Shown here: positions 12,595 to 62,637 of the stretch, one piece after another
Position numbering within the stretch: position 1 is the stretch's first letter
Layout: each line of letters starts with the position of its first letter
Assembly (NCBI GenBank): GCA_946807835.1
Contig: OX327706.1
Span: forward strand, 20,077,001-20,141,000
Source of the DNA: Ailanthus altissimus
Taxonomy: Eukaryota > Streptophyta > Magnoliopsida > Sapindales > Simaroubaceae
Direction: 5' to 3'
DNA: 64,000 nucleotides
Notes under the pieces: generated by a model
What the model was told of the DNA's origin: nothing
Database searches by the model: none
Seen by the model: the letters and a program-made list of their open reading frames with translations, nothing else
Position numbers and translations under genes: made by a program

Positions 12595-12616
12595 ATGCAA
12601 TAAATTATCTTAAAAA

Positions 12617-12790
12617 TTATGTGCCAAATAATAAATGATTAATTGCTTCTTTAACAAATGGCAACCCATCTCTTTGCATGTAAGTTGCCTTTTTAGTATA
12701 AATATGGTTGTTTTGTAAGTTTAGATGACCACTTGAATACAATTCATTATTTCTTTCTCTCATCTCTTTACTTGCCTTATTTCCATTCAT
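12617..12790 (+). repeat. 5' LTR portion of the old copia element
   Basis: Aligns with 27420-27592 (shared landmarks: ATGTGCCAAAT, CCCATCTCTTTGCATGTAA, TATAAATATGGTT, GACCACTT). The copies are diverged by substitutions and small indels, indicating an old insertion. The upstream part of this LTR appears truncated relative to the 3' copy. Confidence 0.7.
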
Positions 12791-13190
12791 TTTCACTTTA
12801 TGTAACAACAAGTTATCTGCATAGGGATTTTATTTCAAGAAATATACCATCTATCCCTTTAGTCTCATATTTAATATAATTATTGTTATGAATATGCTTT
12901 GTAATTGTCATTAAATTGGATCCTCTATATCAAAATATAAAGGTTACTTTTATATGTTTTATTGGATTGTATAGCATCTCCATATTTTCTTATTTTGTAT
13001 TTTAAAGATAAAGAAGAAGAAATATATAGTATTGAAGTTCAGGATTTAAGAATTTGAAGATCTTAAAGAAGTTGAAGCATTATTTAGAAGAGTTGAAGAC
13101 TACATCAAGATATCCAACCTTACAAAGCTTAAGTTCTACACCTTACATAACTCAAGTGAGAGCTATTTATCCTGTATTTTAAATGCTAAG

Positions 13191-16036
13191 TGTAGTAACC
13201 AGTATCCATAACCGGTAAGAATATGTATATTTATATATATAAATATACGTATTTTATTTGTATGTGGGTGATCCTTGATTTATATATTGTTATTAGTAGT
13301 GTTTTTATAGGTTAAGGATATACTATTAGTATTGGGTTTATTTGCAAGACTTTGGAATTATTTTAGGGACCAAATTGTTATACTTTGAAAGTTTTGAGGG
13401 TGAATTCGTAAATACCAAAAATTAACCACTTAGTATAAAAATACACTTTTAAAAACCCTAATTCTCTCATTTTGGTCGAGCTACCCATTTTTAAGAGAGA
13501 GAAGAGAGAAATAGAGGAGAGAGAAAGAGAAGAAGAAGAAGAAGAAATTGGAATTTTTGGATCTTAAGAGGTATATCACAATTATTTCTTAATTTATTGG
13601 TGTTAATTATGTTAATTTCTTTAAGTTTTGATTTCTGGAAATATGTATAATTGAGGATTTGATGTGTATTTCGTATGATAGTTTGAGAATTGATGATGAT
13701 TTATAAGATAGTTTGATAAATCATGATGAATTGTGGAATTTTTGCTGGATAACCTCTTGATCTAGGAATTTTATAAATTTTTTTAATTCGATTCTGGTTT
13801 TGAATTTTGAGTATGTGAAATTAGACATGTTTAGGATCATCTGAGACTTTGAATCGACTGAAAATCTCAGAAATTGAATTTGTAGTGAATTTACCAAAAT
13901 GACCCTGGAATTCTGGAAATTTCCTGTGTAAACAGTATGATACAGTGGAAAATAATTTTTGACCTGCTGAATGATCTTTAAAAATTATGAATTTGTGGCA
14001 TATGATAATTTTATATGTCTAATATGATATACTCGGAATTGAGAATTTGGATCAATGTGGTTGAAGTGTTATGAATTTCTAAAGTGTATCAGCTCATTGT
14101 AGTATTTGATTAACAGATTTTTAAAGTTATGAAATAAAATAGTTTTAAAATACTTTTGGCAGTTATTTGGAAGCCAAATATTTATCATGGACTGAGATAT
14201 GTGTCAAGAGTAATTATGTGATAGTTTTATAATTTTTGAGTTAGTATATGATTTTATAAAATTGGGAGATTGAATACTGTTCAGTAAGTATCTTGATCCT
14301 GTCAGGTTTGTAGTTTGGATTCGATGGTGTGTATGGAATGGATTGTGTAAGAATTTTGATATAATATTCATATATAAGAAGTATATATGAGTCAAGAATG
14401 ATATATTCTTATTTCAGAGTAATTGGACATCATTTGATGTATTAGAAATTTTTGTTAAGTATAAGTGGTCAGAATGACAGGTTTTGAGAAACCAAATATT
14501 TAGACCAATTTGATGTGATAAATGCATTGTGTATAATTTTGTAAGCTATTTAAAGTATTTTGTGTGAATTTTAAGGCTTATGAAAGGATTAATCTCCATT
14601 GATAGGTTAAGGAGATTTAAGCCTTGTAGCTGAAAGTGTTAAGAGGTAAGTATACTAGACTTACTACTGGAATCACAATAAACATAATAATTGTTTTGTA
14701 TGATTTTGTAAATGGGGTTAAGAATATGTTTATGATATGTCAAAGTATATTTTGATATGAAATGTGAATATATGTTTATGAATGTGAGCATTGACATTGA
14801 GCATGGACATACATGTGTTTTTGAAAGTGAGCTTTCCAAAATAAGATGCGTTTAACAAAGAAAGCTTTTGAAGTGTAATATGTCCATGAGAAATATTTTG
14901 TGATTTGAGGGTACTTGAACTCACTGTTAACTTAGTAGGCATTTTATGTGATTTGTGGAGCCTTTATGTGTGGCCTTTCCTTCGGGATTGGTATATGTTA
15001 TGTGTTCCGTATGTAGGGAGGATCCTATTGGTACCTAAAGGAAGTGTGAGTCATCACATTCGTGTGGTGGCGTATTGGTACACGTGAGAGGACTCACCGA
15101 TGATCAGGGTGAGGGTTTGGCTTTTACCTTCGGGCATAAGCGTTATATATGTGTGATTTAAAGACCTCACTTGTACTATTCCTCTCATACGGTATGTCAC
15201 CTACGAGTGACATTTGGCTCATTATGTGATATGTGATATGTAAGTCCTACTAAGTAGTAGTTGAGTGATGGTATTCCTATTATGTGTTTTGAAAGAATGT
15301 GTAAGCGCTTACATGATATGTGATTTGATAAGATTATGATTTTGATTGATCACAGCATATCATACATATGCATTGTGTACATATATGTATTTGTATTTGA
15401 TATATGAAAAACTAGTATGCTTACTGAGTTTTATACTCATTATAGTTTATGGTGATTTCAGGTAAATAAGGTACATGTGTGCTTAGCGGATTTGGCAAGG
15501 CTTCTGCTGTTCCTTGGGTTCCCTAAGTTGCTAGGTTGTTGTGTGTTTCATTTGGGGACACGTGGGATAGGATATTTGGTTTGTCCCTATTGAATAAATA
15601 CTTATGTATTATTTCATTGTGTGTGGATTAGATTTGGTTTAAGTTTTATAAAGTGTGGTCATTGGATGATTTTAAGTAAGAATTTGCAATGGATATATTC
15701 TGGGCTCCCGGTAACAAAGTTGCTACTGGTGACGTAGTAGAGTGTTAATCTCTGAGAAAACTCTGCGTATCTCCGGTTTAATAATTGTCCCAGTCATAAT
15801 TCAATTGCTATAATTCTGAAAGAAATTGAAATGAATGTTTAAATATTGTCAAGAGAAGTTTATATTTATATGTTAGGTTATGGTTGATTTTAGTGTTGAA
15901 CTTACTAGCAACTTGCTAAGGATTTCTGTGTTGAATGAAAGTTGAGTATTTTGTGTAATATTATTTATGAGTGCACGTGCAGTGAATGAATGTAAGTGAT
16001 GTCGTGTGTCGGATCTTTTGGGTCTGGGGCGTGACA
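13191..16036 (+). repeat. 5' LTR of the young gypsy element
   Basis: 2846 bp, starting TGTAGTAACC and ending GCGTGACA. A purine-rich GA tract lies at about 13491-13553. Small ORFs inside are repeated exactly in the 3' LTR and show no known domain, so I do not call them genes. Confidence 0.95.
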
Positions 16037-16044
16037 GCTTTTAT

Positions 16045-16056
16045 TGGTATCAGAGC
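16045..16056 (+). other. Primer-binding site (initiator tRNA-Met type)
   Basis: TGGTATCAGAGC, complementary to the 3' end of plant initiator tRNA-Met, eight bases downstream of the 5' LTR end. It shows that minus-strand DNA priming is still possible for this element. Confidence 0.9.
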
Positions 16057-16419
16057 TAAGATATGATTCTGTAGACTTTTAAGTGTTGAGTCAAGGGAAC
16101 AGAGCAGATGCCAAATCCTTAGGATTGTATTTGTAGCTGTGTTGTGTAAAAGTTTGACATATTCCTTAAATGTTATATGATTTTGTGAAGATGAAACAGT
16201 ATCCAAGAACTGCTAAGATTGTTGTTGTTGTGGATAATGGTACCTTGTGGATCTTATGTTACCATTTAGAATTTTTTTAAGTTGTGACTAATATGCTTAG
16301 CAAGAATGATGTCGAATATCTTATAATGATAATTTGCATGTCATAGAGCAAATTGAGAAAATTTTCTCAATGACAAAATATAGAGAAGTTGAGTATTGAA
16401 GACATCAATTGAAACAACT

Positions 16420-16425
16420 TTTATT
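16420..16425 (-). terminator. Candidate poly(A) signal of the LOG gene
   Basis: AATAAA on the minus strand, about 47 nt downstream of the LOG stop codon. A plausible cleavage/polyadenylation signal; not proof of use. Confidence 0.5.
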
Positions 16426-16471
16426 GAAAAGGAAAACAACAACAATAGCAGCAACAATAATACAGTAAAGG

Positions 16472-17125
16472 CTATGGAGTGAGATTTAAGTCTATTTTGC
16501 GCTTCTTCTGACTGTCATAAGTAGACCAGTCTAACTGATGCAATGTTGGATTAGACAGAGGAATAAAAGACTGCAATTGATCAATCAGTTGATCAACAGT
16601 TGGAGCTGAAATAAAAATCCGTCGTGCTAGAAGTGGGATGAATTGTGTTCCCGCTGCATAGTCAAGAAAAGATATCAACCCGTCGTAAAAACCATTAACA
16701 TTTAACAAACCAATGGGTTTTTGATGGATTTGTAATTGTGCCCATGAGACAATTTGAAAAATTTCCTCCAAGGTCCCGAAACCTCCTGGTAGAGCTATGA
16801 AAGCATCTGCATGCCTAAGCATTTGAGCCATTCGTTCATACATAGATGAGACTTGTAACTCATCCCCAATTGTTTTTCCTACAACATTTTCAATAGCTAG
16901 AGGTTTTGGAATGATACCCAAAACTCGACTACCTTTATTGTGTGCAGCTTTTGCCACAGACCCCATTAACCCTCGGTTACCTCCTCCATATACTAAATGT
17001 ATATTTCGCTCAGCTAATACCTTACCAAGATTTTCTGCAACTTTTGTAAACTCTTCAGTATTCCCAGGGTTGGATCCACAAAAGACACAAATTTTTGTGA
17101 ATCGACGAGCTGAGGTTTCCTCCAT
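16472..17125 (-). CDS. LOG: LOG-family cytokinin riboside 5'-monophosphate phosphoribohydrolase, intronless, inside LTR retrotransposon
   Basis: Uninterrupted 217-aa reading frame starting at ATG 17125 (an in-frame GTG at 17137 lies upstream; plant genes start at ATG). LOG enzymes release active free-base cytokinin from its riboside monophosphate in cytosol and nucleus. Motifs: N-terminal ICVFCGSNPGN, phosphate-binding GGGNRGLMG, a conserved Arg in MYERMAQM, and the signature PGGFGTLEE followed by WAQLQIHQKPIGLLNVNGFYD. Length is normal for plant LOGs (about 210-230 aa) and no key residue is visibly lost. Plant LOG genes normally have several introns (established knowledge); this one has none, indicating a processed copy. 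It lies antisense to the retrotransposon between the PBS and a pararetroviral block in the same orientation as LOG. A TATA box sits upstream and a poly(A) signal downstream. Expression is not demonstrated. Confidence 0.95.
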   Translation of the reverse strand: MEETSARRFTKICVFCGSNPGNTEEFTKVAENLGKVLAERNIHLVYGGGNRGLMGSVAKAAHNKGSRVLGIIPKPLAIENVVGKTIGDELQVSSMYERMAQMLRHADAFIALPGGFGTLEEIFQIVSWAQLQIHQKPIGLLNVNGFYDGLISFLDYAAGTQFIPLLARRIFISAPTVDQLIDQLQSFIPLSNPTLHQLDWSTYDSQKKRKIDLNLTP

Positions 17126-17185
17126 TGTTATGCTCACCCTAATCTTTGAATATTTTTGAGTTTGTATAAAGATGCAATAATAATG

Positions 17186-17193
17186 TATTTATA
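17186..17193 (-). promoter_or_regulatory. TATA box of the LOG gene
   Basis: TATAAATA on the minus strand, 61 bp upstream of the LOG ATG, predicting a transcription start around 17155-17160 and a short leader. The 0.5-kb spacer upstream separates LOG from the pararetroviral ORF. Such spacers in caulimovirids hold a promoter, so the TATA box could be LOG-derived or virus-derived. Confidence 0.6.
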
Positions 17194-17720
17194 GAGAAAC
17201 AAATTGATAATAGCTGTGGAGCATATGTGTAAGTATGTTCAAGTATATATTTTTCTCGATTCTTGTGAGGTAAAACAAAAAAAAAGAGAATGAGTTTTAC
17301 TTTATCATTTTATAAGGGACAATAGGTCGCAAAATCTTGAATAAATATATGTTGATATGTAAGTGTGATAAAAATTGTGTCGGAAGTGTGATAAGTTAGG
17401 TAAGATAATTAAGAAAAGTCAATAAAAGCCTATTTCATGGATTTAGGGACTTAGCCATTTTGGCACTAATGGTCGACAATACATCAATGATTTGAAGACT
17501 TTTTGAGCTAACAATTGGACTTTGGACATGAGGCCAAATTAACTTTATTAATTACAAAGATTTTGTGGTCTTAACATTAATTTTTGGCCGATAGATTAAA
17601 AGCAGATATGAAGAAAGATAAAGCACACTTGACATAAAGATAAAACGGTAATCAGTCTCTCTTTGATGTGATAGAGCAACACGGATCTAGTTTCTGTGAA
17701 AATAGAAACAACAATGTAGG

Positions 17721-18848
17721 TCAAAATGAGTCTCCTTGGTCGCTTTCATCTGTGTCGTATCCGTGAGAGAGGAACTTATGGAGTTGTTGTTCCCATACAT
17801 TGAATGAGGGCTCTGGCGGAGTGGAATGTGGGTCTACCATATCTTGATCTTCTCTAGGTGAGCTGGTCTGGATGAGGGATGTGCTGGCTTCCTCTTGGAT
17901 TTGGGTGTCGGTTGGATAAGGTTGGGAGTCTTGAAAGAGGGATAAGTCAAGATTGGGTTGGTGTTGGTCAGGTTCTGTCGGGACAGGTGGCTGAGGCCAT
18001 TGGTGAAGGTTATCCATTTCTTGTCTGTATCTGGCATAATAAGTCATGTTTGGGATATGGTGATGGTGGGTAGAGTAATTTGTATTTCTATGATGTGAAA
18101 GATGACGTTTTTGTCTTTGTTGGAATTTGAGTATATTGGCAAAATTCAGTTCTTCTGCAAAGTCATCTTCAACCTGTTCCCAAGGCGCAGCATCTTCTGG
18201 GGAGATCCAAACGGACGGAGGAATTATCTGATTTTCTTGAGCAAGAATTCTTTCAAGTTCTCTCTTTTGCTAGATTACTTCTTCAGGCCAGAGCTTAATT
18301 GATCCCTTTAGTGAAAGGGTAAAGGTGAGGTAATCCTTGACAGTGGGGTAATAATGGATTTCATGATCTGAAACAATCATACCCTTTCGTTGGAGAAGTA
18401 AAACAGACCAAAGATGTTGTCTAGGGACTGCAGCATTTGTGTTGTTTGCAATCATGTGTTGAAATTTAGTTATCCACCATGTCTTTGGGTAAAACCATTG
18501 GAGAAAAATCAGGGCTGGATGATCTTCATCACATTTTTCTAATTTTTGGACGGTTCTAAGTAATGGGAATTCCATGGCGATTGTATATAGATCCAATAGG
18601 TACCATAACAAGTAAATGACAGATTTGGACCATTGGGAAAATGGGAAAAAATAGTGCAGGTGAAAGAAAGGGTATTCCAAGTTGAACAAAGGGCCACCAA
18701 GAACTGTGAGACCGTGTTCTTGAACTGCCAAGATGGCGTAGTGTCTGATGAATTCTTTGGCACGGGAATGAAGTGTTCTGGTTCTGATTAGGTCTGGAAA
18801 TTGTGGTGGAGAAAAAGGAACATGAGGAGTTATGATAATGGGATTCAT
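17721..18848 (-). pseudogene. Endogenous pararetrovirus-like downstream ORF, one internal stop
   Basis: Starts at ATG 18848 and reads about 375 codons to a stop at 17721, interrupted by a single in-frame TAG near 18270. The N-terminal two thirds is hydrophobic/aromatic with a run such as VQEHGLTVLGGPLFNLEYPF. The C-terminal third is Gln/Pro/Ser/Asp-rich and probably disordered. It follows an RNase H end in the same frame, the place where some endogenous caulimovirids (e.g. florendoviruses) have a second ORF of unknown function. Family assignment rests on this context and my recollection of similar plant-genome ORFs. No function is assigned. Confidence 0.55.
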
Positions 18849-19120
18849 TATGAAGATGGTAAGAGGGTTGGTTTTCTTTATTGCTAGAAAAGTGATTATG
18901 AGGTTTAGGCTATTTATAGAGTTTTGTGAAAGAAAATCAATAATCGTTTTGTTCTTTCCTTTTCCGTGGATGACGTTAAAGGAATAGTTGAAAAACCATA
19001 TTTGCCATCGCAATAATTGTGCTAGTGCAATCTTTTCTGTTTGAAACTGAGCATATTAGAAAAAAGCAGACATGTCAGTCTCAATGAGAAAATGATGTCC
19101 AATAAGGTGGACTATTTTTT
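18849..19120 (-). pseudogene. Endogenous pararetrovirus-like RNase H C-terminus
   Basis: Minus-strand translation contains the pattern RWQIWFFNYSFNVIHGKGKN followed by DFLSQ, characteristic of the end of the reverse transcriptase/RNase H polyprotein of Caulimoviridae (the Ty3 equivalent ends in ADALSR). An in-frame stop lies upstream near 19050 and the rest of the polymerase is absent. It is a dead fragment carried inside the gypsy element. Confidence 0.6.
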
Positions 19121-19529
19121 TTTTTTAAAGAGTTAGAGTAAGAGATATAATGTTGAGATCTATAGTTTAAGAATCATTGATCATTTAAGATCATACCTTC
19201 AATATTCTGATTTGAATGACAACTTAGTTGCGTAGAAATGCTACATTTTTTTTTTAATGATATCAAGGTAGTGAATGATATTATGACGTATGAGTATATG
19301 TTGAAGGGATTAAAATTTTTAAAGAAGTTAAGAATTTTATGTAAGAGATTAGTATGGGTATTCTACATCTATATTATTCTTTAATGAATGAAAGGTGAAG
19401 TGTATAGATACCCATTAAATATCGAACGAATGGGAAAAAAGAATAAAAATATGTGTGTATAATTTTATAAGTCCATAATGTGTGTCATATGTTTATTTTA
19501 TGGATATATGTTTCGTACTCCTCTCGTAT

Positions 19530-19754
19530 ACTCAGCTATGAGCCAACTTAGAGATAATCTAACATATGAATGAGTATTTATTAGGATTTTGGACCACAAT
19601 GAGCAAATCCTATATACAAGGAAGATTGCTTTGTAAATGTTTTATGAATAAACTATACAGTTGAAAAGGAAAATTGAGAATGAGAAGAAGAAATGAGATC
19701 TAAGTATCCTCATCTATGTGCTTAAGTTATGAATTTCGAGGACGAAATTCTTAT
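19530..19754 (+). pseudogene. Chromovirus pol C-terminal (chromodomain-like) remnant
   Basis: Plus-strand fragments resemble the end of chromovirus integrase/chromodomain: the pattern RILDHNEQILYTRKIAL followed by degenerate copies of the usual VxWxNHxxEEATWE region, then the common tail before the purine tract. Stops interrupt it. It is the only visible trace of the element's own gag-pol. Confidence 0.6.
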
Positions 19755-19767
19755 AAGGAGGGGAGAA
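19755..19767 (+). other. Polypurine tract of the gypsy element
   Basis: AAGGAGGGGAGAA directly before the 3' LTR, the expected plus-strand primer. Confidence 0.85.
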
Positions 19768-19768
19768 T

Positions 19769-22614
19769 TGTAGTAACCAGTATCCATAACCGGTAAGAAT
19801 ATGTATATTTATATATATAAATATACGTATTTTATTTGTATGTGGGTGATCCTTGATTTATATATTGTTATTAGTAGTGTTTTTATAGGTTAAGGATATA
19901 CTATTAGTATTGGGTTTATTTGCAAGACTTTGGAATTATTTTAGGGACCAAATTGTTATACTTTGAAAGTTTTGGGGGTGAATTCGTAAATACCAAAAAT
20001 TAACCACTTAGTATAAAAATACACTTTTAAAAACCCTAATTCTCTCATTTTGGTCGAGTTACCCATTTTTAAGAGAGAGAAGAGAGAAATAGAGGAGAGA
20101 GAAAGAGAAGAAGAAGAAGAAGAAATTGGAATTTTTGGATCTTAAGAGGTATATCACAATTATTTCTTAATTTATTGGTGTTAATTATGTTAATTTCTTT
20201 AAGTTTTGATTTCTGGAAATATGTATAATTGAGGATTTGATGTGTATTTCGTATGATAGTTTGAGAATTGATGATGATTTATAAGATAGTTTGATAAATC
20301 ATGATGAATTGTGGAATTTTTGCTGGATAACCTCTTGATCTAGGAATTTTATAAATTTTTTTAATTCGATTCTGGTTTTGAATTTTGAGTATGTGAAATT
20401 AGACATGTTTAGGATCATCTGAGACTTTGAATCGACTGAAAATCTCAGAAATTGAATTTGTAGTGAATTTACCAAAATGACCCTGGAATTCTGGAAATTT
20501 CCTGTGTAAACAGTATGATACAGTGGAAAATAATTTTTGACCTGCTGAATGATCTTTAAAAATTATGAATTTGTGGCATATGATAATTTTATATGTCTAA
20601 TATGATATACTCGGAATTGAGAATTTGGATCAATGTGGTTGAAGTGTTATGAATTTTTAAAGTGTATCAGCTCATTGTAGTATTTGATTAACAGATTTTT
20701 AAAGTTATGAAATAAAATAGTTTTAAAATACTTTTGGCAGTTATTTGGAAGCCAAATATTTATCATGGACTGAGATATGTGTCAAGAGTAATTATGTGAT
20801 AGTTTTATAATTTTTGAGTTAGTATATGATTTTATAAAATTGGGAGATTGAATACTGTTCAGTAAGTATCTTGATCCTGTCAGGTTTGTAGTTTGGATTC
20901 GATGGTGTGTATGGAATGGATTGTGTAAGAATTTTGATATAATATTCATATATAAGAAGTATATATGAGTCAAGAATGATATATTCTTATTTCAGAGTAA
21001 TTGGACATCATTTGATGTATTAGAAATTTTTGTTAAGTATAAGTGGTCAGAATGACAGGTTTTGAGAAACCAAATATTTAGACCAATTTGATGTGATAAA
21101 TGCATTGTGTATAATTTTGTAAGCTATTTAAAGTATTTTGTGTGAATTTTAAGGCTTATGAAAGGATTAATCTCCATTGATAGGTTAAGGAGATTTAAGC
21201 CTTGTAGCTGAAAGTGTTAAGAGGTAAGTATACTAGACTTACTACTGGAATCACAATAAACATAATAATTATTTTGTATGATTTTGTAAATGGGGTTAAG
21301 AATATGTTTATGATATGTCAAAGTATATTTTGATATGAAATGTGAATATATGTTTATGAATGTGAGCATTGACATTGAGCATGGACATACATGTGTTTTT
21401 GAAAGTGAGCTTTTCAAAATAAGATGCGTTTAACAAAGAAAGCTTTTGAAGTGTAATATGTCCATGAGAAATATTTTGTGATTTGAGGGTACTTGAACTC
21501 ACTGTTAACTTAGTAGGCATTTTATGTGATTTGTGGAGCCTTTATGTGTGGCCTTTCCTTCGGGATTGGTATATGTTATGTGTTCCGTATGTAGGGAGGA
21601 TCCTATTGGTACCTAAAGGAAGTGTGAGTCATCACATTCGTGTGGTGGCGTATTGGTACACGTGAGAGGACTCACCGATGATCAGGGTGAGGGTTTGGCT
21701 TTTACCTTCGGGCATAAGCGTTATATATGTGTGATTTAAAGACCTCACTTGTACTATTCCTCTCATACGGTATGTCACCTACGAGTGACATTTGGCTCAT
21801 TATGTGATATGTGATATGTAAGTCCTACTAAGTAGTAGTTGAGTGATGGTATTCCTATTATGTGTTTTGAAAGAATGTGTAAGCGCTTACATGATATGTG
21901 ATTTGATAAGATTATGATTTTGATTGATCACAGCATATCATACATATGCATTGTGTACATATATGTATTTGTATTTGATATATGAAAAACTAGTATGCTT
22001 ACTGAGTTTTATACTCATTATAGTTTATGGTGATTTCAGGTAAATAAGGTACATGTGTGCTTAGCGGATTTGGCAAGGCTTCTGCTGTTCCTTGGGTTCC
22101 CTAAGTTGCTAGGTTGTTGTGTGTTTCATTTGGGGACACGTGGGATAGGATATTTGGTTTGTCCCTATTGAATAAATACTTATGTATTATTTCATTGTGT
22201 GTGGATTAGATTTGGTTTAAGTTTTATAAAGTGTGGTCATTGGATGATTTTAAGTAAGAATTTGCAATGGATATATTCTGGGCTCCCGGTAACAAAGTTG
22301 CTACTGGTGACGTAGTAGAGTGTTAATCTCTGAGAAAACTCTGCGTATCTCCGGTTTAATAATTGTCCCAGTCATAATTCAATTGCTATAATTCTGAAAG
22401 AAATTGAAATGAATGTTTAAATATTGTCAAGAGAAGTTTATATTTATATGTTAGGTTATGGTTGATTTTAGTGTTGAACTTACTAGCAACTTGCTAAGGA
22501 TTTCTGTGTTGAATGAAAGTTGAGTATTTTGTGTAATATTATTTATGAGTGCACGTGCAGTGAATGAATGTAAATGATGTCGTGTGTCGGATCTTTTGGG
22601 TCTGGGGCGTGACA
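19769..22614 (+). repeat. 3' LTR of the young gypsy element
   Basis: 2846 bp, same ends as the 5' LTR. Differences noted by eye relative to the 5' copy at 19975, 20059, 20657, 21271, 21414 and 22574. Confidence 0.95.
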
Positions 22615-25600
22615 CTAAGGGACTCGACGAAACAATAAAAATTTGAAACAATGCACCTTTGCAAGATCGCACTCAAGTTACAATTTTCCTTTGCCATAAT
22701 TTTCATCAATCATTGAAAAGAATACATCATTATAAAGGACTCATGTCTGCTTTAGAATAACTTGAACAAAAGATTTGGTCAGTTGAAGTCAGTGATACTA
22801 TTAAAAACTCGTAATGAGTAGATACCATTGTATCTGCAAGATTTCAAGTCTGATTGCTTCATAATTAACATTATATGAATAAAAAGTAACGAATAAAGAC
22901 TTGTTAGAAAAGACAATTTTAAATTTTTATACCTCAAATAAAGTGCTATAATAACAATATCAAGCATGTGACTATAAGAAATATTCTAATTTGGTTTCAT
23001 TTCTCATTGTTGCTAAAAAGAATAATGAGCTTTTAATGAAGAATCATTAATCTTATCCTACTAGTGTTGCTCCAATACTTGAAGCAAATATTATCTCATA
23101 GAATCGTTAAATAAATGTGGCCTCACAGTCATAATGGTAATCATTGGCATGACCGTGGTCATGGTCATGGACATGGTTGAGATCATGGTTAATATAATTA
23201 TCGACCTTATAAAAATTATAATAAAAACAAATTCAAGTGGGATCGAAATGAAAGAATATAAGGAGAAAAAGTCCAAGATAAAGACACTTGTCTTTTAGGC
23301 AAAATAGAGGGTCATTTTTAGTGTGATTATCGTACGCCCAAACATTTGGCTAATTTGTACGAAACATCTTTGAAAGAAAATGGGAAGAATGTCAAGACCA
23401 ATTATATTGCTGACGTGAATCCAAGAAACACTACACATCTTGACATCTCAGACTTCTTTCGAGATACTAGTCTAAAAAATAATCACTTAGTTGGTGATAG
23501 AAATATTTATACCATATTAAATTTTAATTATTGTTCCTTTTTACATGTTTGTATTACAAGTTAATATATGTTGCTGTCTTGACATTTAATATAAATATTT
23601 CTTTTTTTCTCTCTTCATGAAGGATATAGATTTAAATAACAAATTATATGCTCTCATAAAATACAATGAAATATGTCTAGCAGATAATGTAACAACACCT
23701 ACAATCCTTCAAAATAAAAAGTATTTTTTTTTTAATTTGACATTAGTTAAAGCAAATGTGAATACTATATCAAGCTTTGTAAACTTGATTGAAGGTTCTG
23801 GAAGAGCTATGATCTTCTTAACAAACGACACAAAATATACATTCTTTATGCGTTATATCCACTAGATAAAGAAGATCCCTACTTATCTTCAAAGATATTT
23901 GTCATAATTGTTTCTATATAAAGACTACAAGGAAGAATAATGTGGAATATCTTTGTATTACTTCCAAACTCTCTAGCCAAAAGCAAACATTAGAGAAGTT
24001 CTTGCTTTCTCATATGGTTTATATTATATGACAATTAAGTATTTAAGAGTTATGCAACTACAAATAAAAAGCTAAAAGATCCAAAGACTTTTATACTTTG
24101 ACATGACCGTCTCAACCTTTCTAGATAAAAAATAATGAGAAGAATTATTAAAAATTCTTATGGATGTATAATGAAGAATCTGAAGATTATATCATCCAAC
24201 GATAGTATTTGCACTACTTATTCACAAGGCAAAAAAATGTTGGTTAGATTATCTCATTCTAAAATTAGTTTTGAATCTCTATCATTTTTTAAAAGAATTC
24301 AAATAGATATTTATAGACCAATACACCTGTCAAGTGAACCATTTCTCTACATCATAGTCCTGAATTATACATCTAGTGGGTGGTCACATGTTTATTTGCT
24401 ATCTACATATAATCTTACTTTTACTACATTATTGGCTTATACTATTAGATTACGTGCACGATTTTCAAATTACGTAATCAAGACCTTACATCTTGATAAT
24501 GCCAGTGAGTTTACTTCAAGACATGTAGTGACTACTGCATGTTAGTAGGAATATCGTAAAACATTCAATGCCACATGTTCACAACTGGAAAAGGGTTGGC
24601 AAAATCGTTCATTAAGAGACTCTAGATGATTGCAAGAACTTTGCTACTACATACTCAATTACCTGCTTCAGTATGAGATTATATAATTTTGCATACCGTA
24701 ACATTATAATACCTAAGGCTAACTGCTTATCACAAATATTTTCTATTGCAACTAATGTTTGGTCGTCAACCTGATATATCCCATCTACGTACCTTTGGTT
24801 ATGTTATAAAAGTTCCAATTACATCTCCTCAGCACACCAAGATGAGACCCCAACATTGTTTAAAATTTTATGTCGGTTTTGACTCACTATTTATTATCAA
24901 GTATCTCGAGCCCTTAATGAGTGATATATTTATTGTATATTTTACAAATTATCATTTTAATGAGATGAACTTTCCTTTATTAGGAGTGGGAAAAATGCCT
25001 TCAAAAAATAGGTAAGAATTATCCTAAAGAGTAACTCATGTCTCATCTAGATTTTTTGCACCATATAAAGTAAAAATAAAATACGAATGATATTTCATTT
25101 GCAGTAAATTGTAAATCAGTTGTCTAATGTATTTATAGATGCATAAAAAATAACCAAATCGTATGTGTTAGCTGTTAATATGCTAACCTGAGTAGTTGTT
25201 CTTAAAGAACAACTTATTGAAAAGGTAGTTGGGGAAATGTCTATTATGGGTCGAAAGCATAGTAAACCACTTGGTTTAAAAGATTCAATTTCACATAAAG
25301 AAAAAATACATAATTATGATCCTATTATAAATGATGCTTTAGCTATGGTTGAAAATACTCTTAAAGAGCGTAATGATCCTGATATAATAAGAGCCTTAGA
25401 AGTGACTCAAGTATTAGAAGTGATTCAAGACCCAGAAAAGCCTAGAAATAAATAAAGAATCATCGATGATGTATTTGTATTTATAATAGTTACTAAAACT
25501 ATGAATATTAATTCTAAATCATTGTATGTGGATGAATTCAGATTGAAGCATGATTGGCTAAAAAATCATTATTCAATTAAAATTGACTTCTTTAGCCAAA

Positions 25601-27169: not shown

Positions 27170-27620
27170 TGTAATATGCAAATAAAATAATTTCTACAAC
27201 CATTTTGAACATACAACATAGTACTCTTTTTTCTATTAATTAAGTTTTATTTCATTGAATTTTATTAATAAAAATTTATAACGGGACAATTGCACGTACA
27301 ACACTACTTTTTAATTCATCAAAAACTATATTTATTTTGCTTTGGTTTTGGTTTATTGAGTTTCTAAGGAGAGTGTTATATATCAATTTGTCTCTCACTA
27401 TAACTTTACTGAATATTAAGTATGTGCCAAATGACAAATGATTAATTGCCTCTTTAACAATTGACAACCCATCTCTTTGCATGTAAATTGCTTTTTCACT
27501 ATAAATATGGTTTGTTTCATAAGCTCCTATGTGACCACTTAAATACAATTCGTTATAGCTTTCTCCCGTCTCTTCACTTGCCCTAATTTTATATTACAAT
27601 TGTACAAACAAAATAGAAAG
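27170..27620 (+). repeat. 3' LTR of the old copia element
   Basis: Starts TGTAATATGC immediately after a polypurine tract (CAAGGGGAG at 27161-27169). Positions 27420-27592 align with the 5' copy at 12617-12790. The right end is uncertain. Confidence 0.65.
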
Positions 27621-52109: not shown

Positions 52110-55100
52110 ATGGAGAGCTATTTGCAAGAGAACTTTGGGGTGAAGCCAAAACACTCGTCTACTGAGGCCTTGGAGAAATGGAGACATCTATGCGGAGTTG
52201 TCAAGAATCCGAAACGCAGGTTTCGGTTTACTGCCAATCTCTCAAAACGTCATGAGGCTGCCGCTATGCGTAAAACCAATCAGGTCTGTTAAAAGAATGC
52301 CTTTAAATGTTTATGTTGTCATGCATGCAGTGAACCGGCTGCCATTGTAATGAATAAATGATGGTTTGCAGAAACCTGAGTCATGATTCACGATCCTTCA
52401 AATTGTTCATGTGGGCTGAAAAATTTACTTTTATGCAAAGCCTGCTCACTATGGATGACCCAAAACTGATAAATAATTTGTTTATCATTTTTTTCCTTCT
52501 TTTTACTGGTTTCCTAAAAATTTCATTTATATATATATATATTTTAAATTTTCATCTATTGCTATGTAGCGCTAAAAAATTTCATCACTGAACAATTGAT
52601 TCTCAGTTATACTTCCTTGAAATTTGAAACAAGAAAAACTCTGTTTTTAAACTGCCAAACGCGTTGAGATGCCAAAATGAGGCACATTGGTCACTGGTAG
52701 AGTGCCACTGAAAGTGCTAACATGATCATCATTTTTGAAAGAGGCTTGAATTTATGTTTCAATTTCTCGTATCAGAATGAACACTGTATTCTTTAGACAA
52801 TAAAAGGTTGATTCTACCATTTGACGCTCATCTTTATTATGTGATCATGCATCGAAATTTCATGATTATAGCAAATATCACGAGCAATCCGTTAATGATA
52901 TTGTGCTTCATTTTTCATAGCACAGTTTCTTTCTCTCAATTTAATTTCTATAACCTTTTTCACCAAACATTGCAGGAGAAGTTGCGCATTGCAGTCCTCG
53001 TTTCCAAAGCTGCAATTCAATTTCTTTTAGGTGAGTGAGCTTCTTCACACTTAACGTAAGATAAAGGTGTAAGTTTCATCATAACGTTCTTGCTCACCCA
53101 TCTTCATGGAATGTCTGCAGGTGTGACCCCAAGCGACTACACGGTACCTGAGGAAGTCAAAGCTGCAGGTTTTCAAGTGTGTGCTGAAGAGTTGGGATCT
53201 ATTGTTGAAGGCCATGATGTAAAGAAACTGAAAGTTCATGGTGGAGTCACCGGTCTTGCTGGAAAGCTATCCACGTCAACGACTGATGGGCTCAATACCA
53301 ATACTGATCTCTTCAATCGCAGACAAGAGATATATGGAGTCAATAAATTTGCTGAGGCCAAACTTCGGAGTTTCTGGGTGTTTGTTTGGGAAGCTCTTCA
53401 GGACATGACTCTAATGATACTTGGGGCTTGTGCTTTTGTGTCTTTGATAGTTGGCATAGCTATGGAAGGATGGCCTAAAGGTGCCCATGATGGCCTTGGG
53501 ATTGTTGCTAGTATCTTGCTGGTTGTGTTTGTTACTGCTACAAGTGATTATCGCCAATCCTTGCAGTTCAAGGATCTGGACAAGGAGAAAAAGAAGATTG
53601 CAATTCAGGTCACAAGAAATGGATTCAGACAGAAATTGTCAATATATGATTTACTTCCTGGCGATATTGTACATCTTGGTATAGGAGACCAAGTCCCGGC
53701 TGATGGACTTTTTGTTTCAGGATTTTCTGTATCCATTGATGAATCAAGTTTAACAGGTGAAAGTGAACCGGTGATGGTGAATGCTGAATATCCTTTTATG
53801 CTTTCTGGAACTAAGGTCCAAGATGGCTCGTGCAAGATGCTGGTTACCACTGTTGGGATGAGAACCCAATGGGGTAAACTAATGGCTACTCTTAGTGAGG
53901 GAGGAGATGATGAAACTCCATTACAGGTGAAATTGAATGGAGTGGCAACCATTATTGGTAAGGCAGGCCTTTTCTTTGCCATCGTGACTTTTGCAGTTTT
54001 GGTGCAAGGATTGCTTAAACAGAAACTGGCAGAGGGAAGCATTTGGAGTTGGGGAGGAGATGATGCTTTGAAACTGCTGGAATTCTTTGCTGTTGCTGTT
54101 ACAATTGTTGTTGTTGCAGTTCCAGAAGGGCTTCCATTAGCTGTAACATTGAGTCTTGCCTTCGCGATGAAGAAGATGATGAATGATAAAGCACTTGTCA
54201 GGCATCTAGCAGCTTGTGAAACAATGGGATCCGCTTCAAGTATTTGCAGTGATAAAACTGGCACACTAACAACTAATCACATGACTGTCGTCAAATCATG
54301 CATTTGCATGAATGTCAACGAAGTAAGTAAAGATATTGCTTCTACTTTGTGCTCTGAAATGCCTGATTCTGCAGTGAAACTCCTGCTACAATCAATATTT
54401 ACCAACACTGGGGGTGAAGTTGTTGTTAACAGAGATGGGAAACGTGAGATTTTAGGAACACCCACTGAGACTGCTTTGTTGGAGTTTGGCTTGTCACTTG
54501 GTGGAGATTTCCAGGCAGAGAGACAAGCATATAAAATTGTTAAAGTTGAGCCATTCAACTCTACAAAGAAACGAATGGGAGTGGTGCTGGAGCTCCCTGA
54601 AGGAGGCTTGAGAGCTCATAGTAAAGGTGCTTCAGAAATAGTCTTAGCTGCTTGTGACAAGGTAATTAATTCAAATGGTGATGTGATTCCTCTAGATGAA
54701 GAATCCCTTAACCATCTCAAAGCTACAATTGATCAATTTGCAAATGAGGCTCTTCGAACACTGTGTCTAGCCTTTATAGAACTGGAGAACGGGTTCTCAC
54801 CTGATGATGCCATTCCAGTTTCTGGGTACACTTGTATTGGAATTGTGGGTATTAAGGATCCTGTTCGTCCTGGTGTCAAAGACTCTGTTGCAGTTTGTCG
54901 TTCAGCTGGTATCACTGTAAGAATGGTTACCGGAGACAATATAAACACGGCAAAAGCTATAGCAAGGGAATGTGGGATTCTTACTGATGATGGTATAGCC
55001 ATTGAAGGTCCCGATTTCAGAGAGAAGACAACAGAGGAATTGCTAGAGCTAATTCCCAAAATTCAGGTGCTTTTACATTCTACTTACCAAAAACCTTTGT

Positions 55101-56708
55101 TCCCATTTGAGTGCTTAGTAATGAGGACACTTCATCTAGCTCATTTGTGACTGAAAATGGTTTTAACTTGTTTTTTTCCAGGTGATGGCTCGTTCTTCGC
55201 CTCTAGACAAGCATACATTAGTAAAGCATTTGCGAACTACATTTGATGAAGTGGTTGCAGTGACTGGTGATGGAACAAATGATGCTCCAGCTCTTCATGA
55301 AGCTGATATTGGACTAGCAATGGGCATTGCTGGAACTGAGGTGTGTACACTTCGAATACTTCTAAAAAGTGCAACATGCTCTAGCAATGGGCACTGGGTT
55401 TAAGATTTTCACTTTTCAATCAATTATTATCCCGGAACTAACACCCCTATATCTAAGGTTTTAATTAATAAGTCATTGAATTTTCTGACCTAATCTATTT
55501 ATGAATCAACTCTAGAGCTTCTCATTTAAGATCAAAACATCTGAATTCTGGTAAATACTGCCAATATTCTAAGTGATGTTATTCCAAAATTTCAGGTGGC
55601 TAAGGAGAGTGCTGATGTCATAATTCTGGATGATAATTTCTCTACAATTGCAACAGTAGCCAAGTGGGGACGTTCAGTTTACATAAACATTCAAAAATTT
55701 GTGCAGTTCCAGTTGACTGTTAATGTAGTTGCACTAATTGTTAATTTCTCTTCAGCTTGCTTGACAGGTAAGAAAGTGCACCATTTGCCTTTTTTTTTCA
55801 CCTGGAATTTAAATATTAAGCTTCTTTAGTGTTATGAATTACTTCCCCATTCCTTCTTATCCTTATGTATCGAACCATGGTTCAGGAAGTGCACCCCTCA
55901 CAGCTGTTCAGCTACTGTGGGTCAATATGATCATGGATACACTGGGAGCACTTGCACTTGCAACTGAGCCTCCAACTGATGAATTAATGAAGCGTCCGCC
56001 AGTTGGAAAGAGAGGCAATTTTATCAGTAATGTCATGTGGAGGAATATCTTAGGGCAGTCAATTTATCAGTTTATGGTGATATCGTTGCTTCAGGCTAAA
56101 GGAAAAGCAATATTTGGTCTTCACGGCCCAGACTCGACTCTATCTCTGAACACACTAATATTCAACTCATTTGTCTTTTGCCAGGTAACCTTCTCTCAAA
56201 TATTTCTCGAGCATTCTTTCAATACTATGTTTCCTCTTCTGTATCCTTGCATGTAAACTGGTAAATAATACTAGGCAACTTTAGATGCTCCCGAGTAATT
56301 GTTATGCTATATGCATGTAAAGTGGTAATAGTTATCCAATTTAGGTTACACAATAATTGAACCAAATAGGAAGTTCCTTATTCAGTCTTGTCTTGAGGTT
56401 CTAAGGAGGTGAGTCACATTTGACGTAGTGATCTTTCCATTTTCTAACTCTGTTTTCTCATTCTGTAGGTTTTCAATGAGATAAGCTCGCGCGAGATGGA
56501 GGAAATAGATGTTTTCAGAGGCATATTGGATAACTATGTTTTTGTAGCTGTCCTCAGTATCACTGTTATCTTCCAGATTATAATTGTGGAGTTTCTGGGC
56601 ACTTTTGCCAATACAACACCTCTCTCTCTTACACAGTGGTTTGTCAGCATATCCATCGGATTCTTAGGCATGCCAATTGCTGCAGTATTAAAGAAGATCC
56701 CGGTGTAA
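52110..56708 (+). CDS. ACA: Autoinhibited Ca2+-ATPase, P2B type (ACA1/ACA2-like)
   Basis: Seven exons: 52110-52283, 52976-53030, 53121-55066, 55182-55340, 55596-55767, 55886-56184, 56469-56708. All GT-AG; phases close to 1015 codons (1014 aa), as in Arabidopsis ACA2 (length from memory). The pump exports Ca2+ from the cytosol using ATP; relatives of this group sit in ER or other endomembranes. The N-terminal calmodulin-binding/autoinhibitory region is visible (about residues 20-48, [20 protein letters not shown]). Catalytic motifs: TGES (about 288-291), PEGLP in the Ca2+-binding membrane helix (about 411-415), phosphorylation site DKTGT (Asp about 454), and hinge TGDGTNDAP (753-761). The last exon carries the final membrane helices and ends in KKIPV. 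No lesion seen. Overlapping antisense ORFs are shadows. Confidence 0.96.
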
Positions 56709-59274: not shown

Positions 59275-62200
59275 ATGATCGCAAGCTGGAATATTCGGGG
59301 TCTTCACGACCCTTGTAAAAAATCAGAGGTACGGTCTCTGATTAAATCTTGTCGATTATGTATTTTGGGATTGTTAAAAACAAAAGTTAAACTATCTAAT
59401 CTAGATACCATTTGGAAGAAATTAGCCTTACGGGATTGGAAGTTAGAAAATAATTCTGAGTGTCTAGATATTGGAAGAATTTGGATTGTCTTTAATCCTG
59501 CTAGATGCAATGTCACGATCCTACAAAAGCACCAACAATTCATACATAGTAGAGTTCTTATCGATGGCATTGTGTTTTACTGGACTCTTGTTTATGGAGC
59601 CTCTACCCCTATGGAGAGAGAAAACTTGTGGAAGGACTTTGGTGATGGCTTGACTCCCAACACTACACATTGGTTAATCCAAGGAGACTTTAACAACGTC
59701 ATCAGCAACAATGATAAAATTTGGGGCCAATGGGTAAATGATAACATGGTGGAACAGTTTAAAAGTTGGATATCGAGACTAGAGTTATTTGAGTTAAAGA
59801 ACCATGGGTGTCGCTACACTTGGTGCAATAATCAAACTGGAGAACAACGAATTTGGAGGAAAATTGATTGGGCATTTGTTAATGGAAAGTGGTTAGATGC
59901 ATTAGCTTCCTCTGAGTGTGAAGTTTTACCAGCAGGCATTTCAGATCACTCTCCTCTTGTGGTATCCATCTCGAGAGCTTCCTATAGTGGTAATATTCCT
60001 TTCAAGTTCTTTAATGCCTGGTGTGCCCATTCTGAGTTTCACTCCACAGTTGAGCGAGTTTGGCAGCATGAATGTTATGGCCCACTAATGGCCCGGGTCT
60101 GGGTTAAACTCAAATTATTAAAACCCAAGCTAAAAGAGCTCAACAAAGTTTTTTTCTCTGATGTCCAGCAAAAGATAGAAGATTACAAAATGATGTTGAC
60201 CTCCTTACAGAGTAGTCTTATCCATGATCCATTTAACCAAATTCTTCAAGATGAGGAAATGGGCATTTATCAGCATTTAAGGGAACTTATTTATGCTGAA
60301 GAAAGCATTATTAGACAAAAATCAATAATAAGATGGATTCAAATGGGGGATTTAAATACCAGCTACTTTCATAAGTCAGTTAAGCAGAGAAGAGCTCGGA
60401 ATAGAATCACTTCGATTGAGAGACAAAATGGGGAAAACTCTGATGATCCCAAGGTTGTGAAAGAAGCCATAGTCGGTTACTACAAGGATTTGCTGGGTAC
60501 CAACACTTCCTATAGGGCGTCCATACAAAAGAGAATCATAGATGCTGGCCCTAAATTGAAGGTAGACGATAGAGACATACTGAATGCTCCAGTCACAGCC
60601 CAAGAAGTCAAAAAGGCTATCTTTAGCATCAATGGTGATAAAGCCCCAGGACCTGATGGTTACAACAGTCATTTCTTTCAAAAAAGTTGGCACATCGTTG
60701 GAACGGAGGTGACTGAAGCTGTGCAACATTTCTTCTCCTCAGGTCAGTTCTACAATCCCATAAATGCCACTACCATTACTCTCGTGCCTAAGATTCATAA
60801 TCCTCACAGTTTGGGGGACTATAGACCAATTGCATGTTGTACGGTCCTTTACAAATGCATCACCAAAATAATAACAGGTAGGCTAAGGAATGTGGTGAGC
60901 TATTTAGTCAACCCCAGTCAATCAGCCTTTATTCCTAATAGGAAGATAACCGATAATGTTTTACTGGCACATGAACTTATGAGGGGATATGATCGGAATA
61001 GTGGAAGCCCAAGATGTGCACTTAAGATAGACCTCCGCAAGGCTTATGATTTGGTCTCATGGGATTTCCTAGAAGAGGTATTGATGGGGCTCAATTTCCC
61101 TTATCACTTTATCAATATTATCATGAAGTGTGTCAGAATTAACATGTACTCAGTTGTGGTGAATGGCAGATTAGAAGGCTTTTTCCCGGGGAAGAAAGGT
61201 TTGAGGCAAGGGGATCCCATGTCCCCTCTGCTTTTTGTGTTGGCCATGGAATACCTTAGTAGAAGCCTAAGCAGTATTCCTCAGAATCAGTTTATATTTC
61301 ACAGGGGGTGTAAGAGGCTGCAGTTAAATCACTTGATGTTTGCAGATGACTTATTCTTATTCTCTCATGGCGATGACAGGTCAGTGGACCACTTTAAGCA
61401 AGTGCTTGATGATTTTTTAATGGTTTTCGGGCTACACCTTAACGCTGGTAAGAGCTTCATTTTCTTTGGGAATGTTTCTCAGCCTACCAAAGAGACAATT
61501 CTGCAGATCACTCAGTACAAACAAGGTGAGCTGTCTATCAAATACTTAGGTATTCCCCTAATTTCAGGTGGACTAAAGAAAGACCACTGTCAGGAGCTTA
61601 TTAATAGGATAACCTCTAGAATCTCAAGCTGGACTGTGAAATATTTGAGTTATGCGAGGCGGTTACAATTAATAAAATCTGTGATAATGAGTATGCACGT
61701 CTACTGGAGTTCTATATTTATCCTACCTAAGTCAGTCACCAAAGAAATTGAAAATAAATGCCGTAATTTCTTATAGCATGGAAGTAACCAACAGGGGAAG
61801 AGAGGATTAGTGGGTTGGAATGAGGTGTGCAAAGGAAAAAAAGAAGGAGGCCTAGGCATTAAATCTATAAGCTTATGGAATTTAGCGGCAGTTACTAAGC
61901 ATATCTGGGAGCTAGTTGCACTGAAATCCTCTTTATGGGCGAAATGGGTAATTGATAACAAACTGCAGAGGCTAAGTTTTTGGGGAATCACAAAGCCAAT
62001 GGACTGTAGCTGGACATGGAGGAAAATCCTTAGAATGAGAAGTCAGATAAAACAATTGTTCTCATATGAATTGGGTAACGGCAAATCTTTCTGTTTTTGG
62101 TGGGATCCATGGCTGAGTGGGGAGTCTATAGTTAATAAATTCCCCCACGTTGACATTTTGGATGCGGATATTCCACGGGATGCTAAGGTTAATGATCTAT

Positions 62201-62637
62201 GGCAGAATGGTCACTAGAACCTCCCGGATCCTTTGGATGAGAATACTGCTTAGGTATGGGATTATCTACGCAAAATATTTTCAATTACTGAAAGAGATGA
62301 TAGAATTTCATGGTCAGCAAACTCCAATGCAAAATTTTCTATTGCGAGTACTTGGAAGGGTCTCAAGATTAATGAGGCTAAGGTGGGATGGTATCAACTG
62401 ATATGGGGAACACAACATATGCCTAAACACAGCTTCGTTATTTAGTTGGCTTTGAAGAACAGATTGTCTACAAGGGACAGACTCAAAAAATGGGGGATTA
62501 TTCCTTCAGATGAGTGCCCCCTTTGTGATTGCGACAAGGAGACAATTTCACACTTATTTTTTCAATGCAGCTTTAATAGTGAAATATGGCATAGAGTCCT
62601 TATAGCGTGTCAGCTCACTCAATGCCTGGACAGATGA
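59275..62637 (+). pseudogene. LINE ORF2: endonuclease and reverse transcriptase, with stops
   Basis: The first 833 codons (59275-61776) are open. The apurinic-type endonuclease begins SWNIRGLHDP, with GDFNNVIS and SDHSPLVVS. Reverse transcriptase follows, with DYRPIACCTVLYKCITKII, IDLRKAYD, GLRQGDPMSPLLF and the catalytic FADDLF (residues about 689-694). A TAG at 61774-61776 replaces the Trp usual in the FLWHG motif. The frame then stays open to a TAG near 62215 and further stops follow. The zf-RVT domain (CPLCDCDKETISHLFFQC) is at about 62515-62570. Recently active, now inactive copy (inference from the few lesions). Confidence 0.9.

Follow-up and report, generated by a model that had tools for sequence, protein, structure and literature searches.

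The locus lies in a window of 64,000 nucleotides of Ailanthus altissimus (contig OX327706.1), by which we mean the whole stretch of DNA analysed. It consists of an LTR retrotransposon whose interior holds, on the minus strand, an intact gene of the LOG family and, beside it, the decayed remnant of what appears to be an endogenous caulimovirid. The features, in window positions, are as follows.

13186..13190, target site duplication CTAAG, left copy, 5 bp
13191..16036, plus strand, 5' LTR, TG...CA, 2846 bp
16045..16056, plus strand, primer binding site TGGTATCAGAGC, tRNA-Met type, 8 nt past the 5' LTR
16420..16425, minus strand, AATAAA, 47 nt past the LOG stop codon
16472..17125, minus strand, intact intronless LOG-family gene, 217 codons, ATG at 17125, TAG ending at 16472
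17186..17193, minus strand, TATAAATA, first base 68 nt ahead of the LOG ATG
17721..18848, minus strand, decayed ORF past the RNase H end, florendovirus ORF2-like by place and size
18849..19055, minus strand, C-terminal end of a caulimovirid-type RNase H, 69 codons, TAA ahead (19056-19058)
19755..19768, plus strand, polypurine tract AAGGAGGGGAGAAT, just ahead of the 3' LTR
19769..22614, plus strand, 3' LTR
22615..22619, target site duplication CTAAG, right copy, 5 bp

The element has the full set of ends of an LTR retrotransposon, namely paired TG...CA LTRs, a 5-bp target site duplication, a primer binding site and a polypurine tract, and its LTRs differ at 6 of 2845 compared columns, all of them transitions (K2P 0.0021; another count, of 7 mismatches in 2849, takes in bases outside the LTR). 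An earlier note on this DNA had placed LOG antisense between the primer binding site and polypurine tract of a young element, and the LTR count together with the CTAAG duplication bears this out. At the mutation rates used for LTR dating, 1.3e-8 and 6.5e-9, the insertion is about 0.08–0.16 million years old; gene conversion could make the LTRs appear younger than their true age. The six differences (13191-22614) are all C/T or G/A, the pattern expected of methylated-cytosine deamination in a silenced element, and such deamination may have produced them.

The gag-pol polyprotein of an autonomous element is absent between the LTRs, because all three plus-strand ORFs of at least 60 aa found there overlap either LOG or the antisense viral block. 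We take the primer binding site to match tRNA-Met, and a short tail ahead of the polypurine tract presumably resembles the end of a chromovirus pol. In the accessible part of one source, primer binding sites of the tRNA-Met type are described for most chromoviruses and for copia lineages, and not for non-chromovirus gypsy elements (PMC6317226). Judged by its primer binding site, a type that copia elements share, the element probably has ends of the chromovirus type.

The rest of the window holds further repeats and genes. A diverged repeat array occupies positions 1-827 (17 copies of a 162-nt reference that overlap one another, spaced mostly 42 or 36 bases apart, also 41, 18 and 78), and two 100-nt repeats, 88% alike and 14.8 kb apart, flank the LTR element (12615-12714 and 27418-27517). 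By eye, a plus-strand ORF at 24135-24545 resembles a copia-type integrase fragment (no Pfam match), and a LINE-type element, likewise typed by eye, lies on the plus strand at 59275-62217, where an 833-aa ORF matching RVT_1 (1.7e-38) is followed by a 135-aa ORF without a Pfam match. Two nearby plus-strand host genes, those for ribosomal protein L26 (44552-44992) and a P-type cation (calcium-type) ATPase (53090-56256), form part of the codon-usage yardstick applied below.

The LOG frame lies near the 5' end of the element. As the earlier note had stated, it is complete, with 217 codons and both the GGGNRGLMG and PGGFGTLEE motifs (17125-16472, minus strand), and its product matches PF03641 with an E value of 2.9e-38. 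The protein scores 182 bits against NCBIfam TIGR00730 (cut-off 96.35), compared with 203.7 for AtLOG3 and 188.6 for AtLOG8; the PF03641/TIGR00730 domain extends across the whole protein and, with the PGGxGTxxE signature, identifies it as a member of the LOG family. When the internal region was simulated 300 times with a Markov model, the longest stop-free run was 191 codons, and 217 was never reached. Several introns interrupt the LOG genes of plants. The window protein aligns without gaps to the AtLOG3 chain 2a33 over residues 6-201, so that this stretch holds no intron and the description of the gene as intronless stands. Other searches were less informative: in PHROGs the single match was a DprA-like family (5.8e-12), and a single-sequence AlphaFold model had a mean pLDDT of 48 and was unusable. 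The protein also falls below the 300-bit cut-off of the NCBIfam equivalog NF058542 (CtkRMPhLog) with 123.3 bits; we rejected this as a sign against LOG function, because AtLOG3 (133.6) and AtLOG8 (116.7) fall below it too.

The gene had also been credited with its own TATA box and poly(A) signal. Both motifs are present, and their value as evidence of a gene unit does not hold up: in random 100-nt stretches of the window (20,000 draws), TATAWAW occurs in 17%, TATAAATA in 3% and AATAAA in 16%. We rejected a promoter and poly(A) signal of its own as evidence of a working gene unit, since such motifs are frequent by chance.

Whether the product would activate cytokinin was considered by mapping the sites proposed for CgLOG onto it by alignment through AtLOG3. 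The proposed catalytic residues of CgLOG are Arg99 and Glu122, and its prenyl-group site, which the authors inferred without a substrate complex, comprises Met96, His97, Lys100, Glu125 and Trp129, identical in AtLOG3, OsLOG and CpLOG, as given in the available text (PMC4979012). The window protein has the catalytic pair (R98 and E121) and keeps two of the five prenyl-site residues (M95, Y96, M99, Q124, W128); the changes are H>Y, K>M and E>Q, at positions on which the five sequences it was compared with all agree. Overall, those five LOG-family rows have 42 columns without variation, of which the window protein keeps 36 and changes six, and the fall of three of those six on the five site positions has a hypergeometric probability of 0.015, a post hoc figure. 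Since three of the five residues proposed for the prenyl site are altered, it would be unsafe to assume that the protein activates cytokinin. The same source lists Lys100 in the adenine site too, so the K>M change could harm nucleotide binding in general; it also notes that MmLOG departs at the prenyl site, for which its authors suggest other cytokinins as substrates (PMC4979012). Judged from these residues, the product would still fold and probably hydrolyses some nucleoside monophosphate as a phosphoribohydrolase, and its nucleotide specificity may have shifted. It is doubtful that it activates cytokinin in the ordinary way, and the claim that the copy would make active cytokinin is not supported, although its catalytic Arg and Glu are kept.

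The frame beside LOG is visibly decayed. The RNase H end and the ORF2-like stretch lie in one frame, and a TAG (18270-18272) splits the latter into one piece of 192 codons (22.9 kDa) and another of 182 codons (21.5 kDa). In a PDB search the 69-aa RNase H piece matched the 'Enzymatic polyprotein' 8r0s, which we take to be a caulimovirus enzyme (reverse transcriptase), at E 6e-4, the next match having E 0.9, and a 247-aa ORF at 18270-19013 aligned to residues 545-574 of 577 of the same protein (E 0.069). This match is of the caulimovirid RNase H type, with moderate support because it is short. Pfam gave no match for the 69-aa piece or for the ORF2-like pieces searched, and the PDB none for the second ORF2-like piece. 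A viral contig collection returned no relatives of LOG, the ORF2-like piece or the RNase H tail; no contig in it matched a caulimovirid RNase H pattern, so the collection has no power for caulimovirids. In florendoviruses, as far as the text at hand describes them, ORF1 ends in RH1 and is followed by a 45–58 kDa ORF2 of unknown function (PMC4241990). The stretch here fits such an ORF2 in place and roughly in size, and arrangement and size are the basis of the comparison. The viral frame carries two internal stops and is truncated, as against about 1.4 substitutions expected in it since insertion, so the viral part probably decayed before the element's last jump.

The reading that we consider rather probable is of a recent, non-autonomous element, probably with chromovirus-type ends, that carries antisense cargo where gag-pol would be, namely a gene of the LOG family together with what is left of the 3' part of an endogenous caulimovirid. 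The element would have been moved in trans, by gag-pol proteins from an autonomous relative. Its LOG would belong to a lineage that diverged from ordinary plant LOGs in the distant past and changed rapidly, yet under constraint until recently, and the changed prenyl site would make the usual cytokinin nucleotides doubtful substrates.

The length of that constraint is the point at which a partly overlapping and non-exclusive explanation enters, that LOG is dead cargo which lost constraint at capture and is intact for lack of time. We give it a real if minor chance. About 0.7 substitution is expected in LOG since insertion, so the intact frame is uninformative on selection after that event, and we rejected the argument that the gene is intact and therefore functional since insertion. 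The six changes among 42 otherwise invariant positions also fit lost constraint, as does the raised share of pseudogenes among rice LTR-captured genes, whereas in sorghum 72.4% of the captured genes are expressed and purifying selection acts on more of them, according to the accessible portion of one study (PMC3726574). Further, if LOG and the viral piece have long been together, LOG alone stayed open, with no stop against two. Simulated neutral drift of the LOG frame (2000 runs for each divergence, substitutions only without indels, true K being about 0.76 of nominal) kept the frame free of stops in 34% of runs at a nominal K of 0.05, 11% at 0.1, 4.7% at 0.15 and 1.8% at 0.2. Stop-free runs being so few, constraint on LOG cannot have ended long ago.

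The earlier note took the gene for a processed copy of a plant LOG. In the fuller form of this view considered here, a host LOG mRNA would have been captured recently by template switching in reverse transcription, and its copy would activate cytokinin and spread hormone dosage. The window protein is 48% identical to AtLOG3, 45% to AtLOG8, 45% to 5zbj (which we take to be the Pseudomonas aeruginosa LOG), 42% to YvdD and 38% to the protein of an Uliginosibacterium contig. AtLOG3 and AtLOG8 are 70% identical to each other, and AtLOG3 is no closer to the window protein than to bacterial 5zbj (48% in each case). Such divergence, with three of the five proposed prenyl-site residues changed, counts against a recent host copy, as does the missing poly(A) tail (the longest A-run is 7 in the 435 nt past the LOG stop), which LTR-mediated capture does not, however, require. 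For want of a tail we rejected an L1-type retrocopy outright. The gapless, intronless frame and host-like codon usage are what a host copy would show, its source might be an unusually divergent host paralogue, and such captures are common in plants in the accounts available (PMC5664825; PMC3726574), with between 1398 (rice) and 3898 (potato) genes inside LTR elements across six species (PMC5664825). We regard a recent host copy as unlikely; the simple processed copy of the earlier note is not supported by the identities.

The arrangement of the cargo suggests another route, in which a caulimovirid acquired LOG first and the joined RNase H-ORF2-LOG piece entered the LTR element later. RNase H, ORF2 and LOG are indeed adjacent on the same strand, sharing one orientation and following one another in that order; a TATA motif lies in the 595-nt gap between viral piece and LOG; and for Musa a chimera joining a Ty3/gypsy element to badnavirus DNA has been suggested in the part of the report available (PMC10377300). 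Against it, the codon usage of LOG is unlike that of the viral ORF: its codon choice fits the four host ORFs of the window that served as yardstick (two of the four without a Pfam match; +0.13 bit per codon) better than the viral ORF (−0.07) or the LINE (+0.05), which speaks weakly against a viral past of LOG. The three caulimovirid papers searched for the word cytokinin had 0 occurrences of it in their main texts. A virus-borne LOG is in our judgement improbable.

Horizontal transfer of LOG from a bacterium or fungus, which would account for both the missing introns and the low plant identity, has a similarly slim chance. The window protein is as similar to bacterial 5zbj as to AtLOG8 (45% identity each), and at 13 alignment columns it has the residue of a bacterial row where the plants differ. 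A tree of six sequences, with three bacterial rows, two Arabidopsis sequences as the plant side and no fungal row, nevertheless places the window LOG beside the two plant LOGs with support of 97/95; its end branch measures 1.7 and was flagged for its length. Nine plant-specific columns match the window LOG, one of them at a place where the bacterial rows have a gap. With the 13 bacterial-shared columns standing against these nine, plant origin is likely rather than proven. A contig-collection scan yielded one relative (that of Uliginosibacterium, with a best segment of 45% and 38% overall) in 28 matching stretches, a weak test of horizontal transfer because it used exact 8-residue seeds; an alignment-based scan likewise gave one relative, at 42%, in 39 matching stretches. 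Misassembly, in which an old host LOG locus was misplaced between LTRs, has nothing seen in its favour and is hardly credible given the matching 5-bp duplications, the primer binding site, the polypurine tract and the continuous internal sequence.

The preferred reading, of a recent element carrying a long-diverged LOG that was constrained until recently, leads to a stronger proposal, which we hold tentatively and think rather unlikely: that an LTR retrotransposon lineage has long kept a LOG phosphoribohydrolase with a remodelled pocket as an accessory gene of its own. If so, such elements would carry an enzyme that modifies nucleotides or hormones, and the gene would be more than passenger DNA and might serve the element through the state of dividing cells or through nucleotide pools. 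A structurally different element with an intact, remodelled LOG makes it a testable matter whether LOG enzymes are retained because they help the element, and interest would rise much if sibling copies show long-term selection or if the enzyme shows changed specificity. The occurrence of a host-type gene and a caulimovirid-like remnant in one element bears on the spread of endogenous viral pieces. For annotation, labelling such genes as cytokinin-activating is unsafe where the prenyl site is changed.

The maize element Bs1 is an LTR element with host gene cargo. With it, and with the pepper NLR and rice and sorghum capture elements, the present element has in common an intronless host-type gene in an element that lacks gag-pol and presumably moves in trans; it differs in that its gene is far from ordinary family members. 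Bs1 is named in the available text of one source (PMC7264820), according to which Grande, RIRE2 and Retand have additional antisense ORFs located between pol and the 3' LTR. Of the pepper NLRs that arose by retroduplication, about 72% are given as lying in LTR elements that lack gag or pol in the portion seen of another (PMC5664825).

The LOG product itself shares the whole domain, PGGxGTxEE and the catalytic Arg and Glu with AtLOG3 and AtLOG8 (2a33, 1ydh) and with the bacterial 5zbj and 1t35, the last presumably a Bacillus LOG, and differs from these plant and bacterial LOGs in an identity of 42–48% and in three of five proposed prenyl-site residues. The viral piece is like Florendovirus in that an ORF of about 44 kDa, in two pieces and without known domains, comes after its RNase H end; it is truncated and broken, and its RNase H and ORF2 share a frame, whereas in most florendoviruses they lie in different frames, according to the text at hand (PMC4241990).

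Two Athila-like elements with LOGL4 similarity were reportedly found by Steinbauerova et al. in 2011. A YgdH/LOG domain occurs in LTR-element consensuses of Citrus sinensis and C. clementina and, with a filter off, of Populus trichocarpa, a result that its authors call 'in line with' Steinbauerova et al. 2011 in the accessible text (PMC9289625). LOG cargo in plant LTR elements is therefore already described, contrary to the earlier note, which knew of no such family; in another source LOG is mentioned, in the part available, only within the cytokinin pathway (PMC8087826). The Citrus and Populus Ty3/gypsy elements resemble the present one in having a LOG-type domain between LTRs. Their consensuses were gathered with the reverse transcriptase domain as marker, as the available description has it (PMC9289625), whereas the window element has no gag-pol. 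By description, it differs from them further in its primer binding site, which is of the tRNA-Met type and not Athila-like, and in a LOG that lies antisense near the 5' end beside a caulimovirid-like piece. What is new here is the combination of absent gag-pol, a tRNA-Met-type primer binding site, an antisense LOG near that site, a caulimovirid-like neighbour and a remodelled prenyl site.
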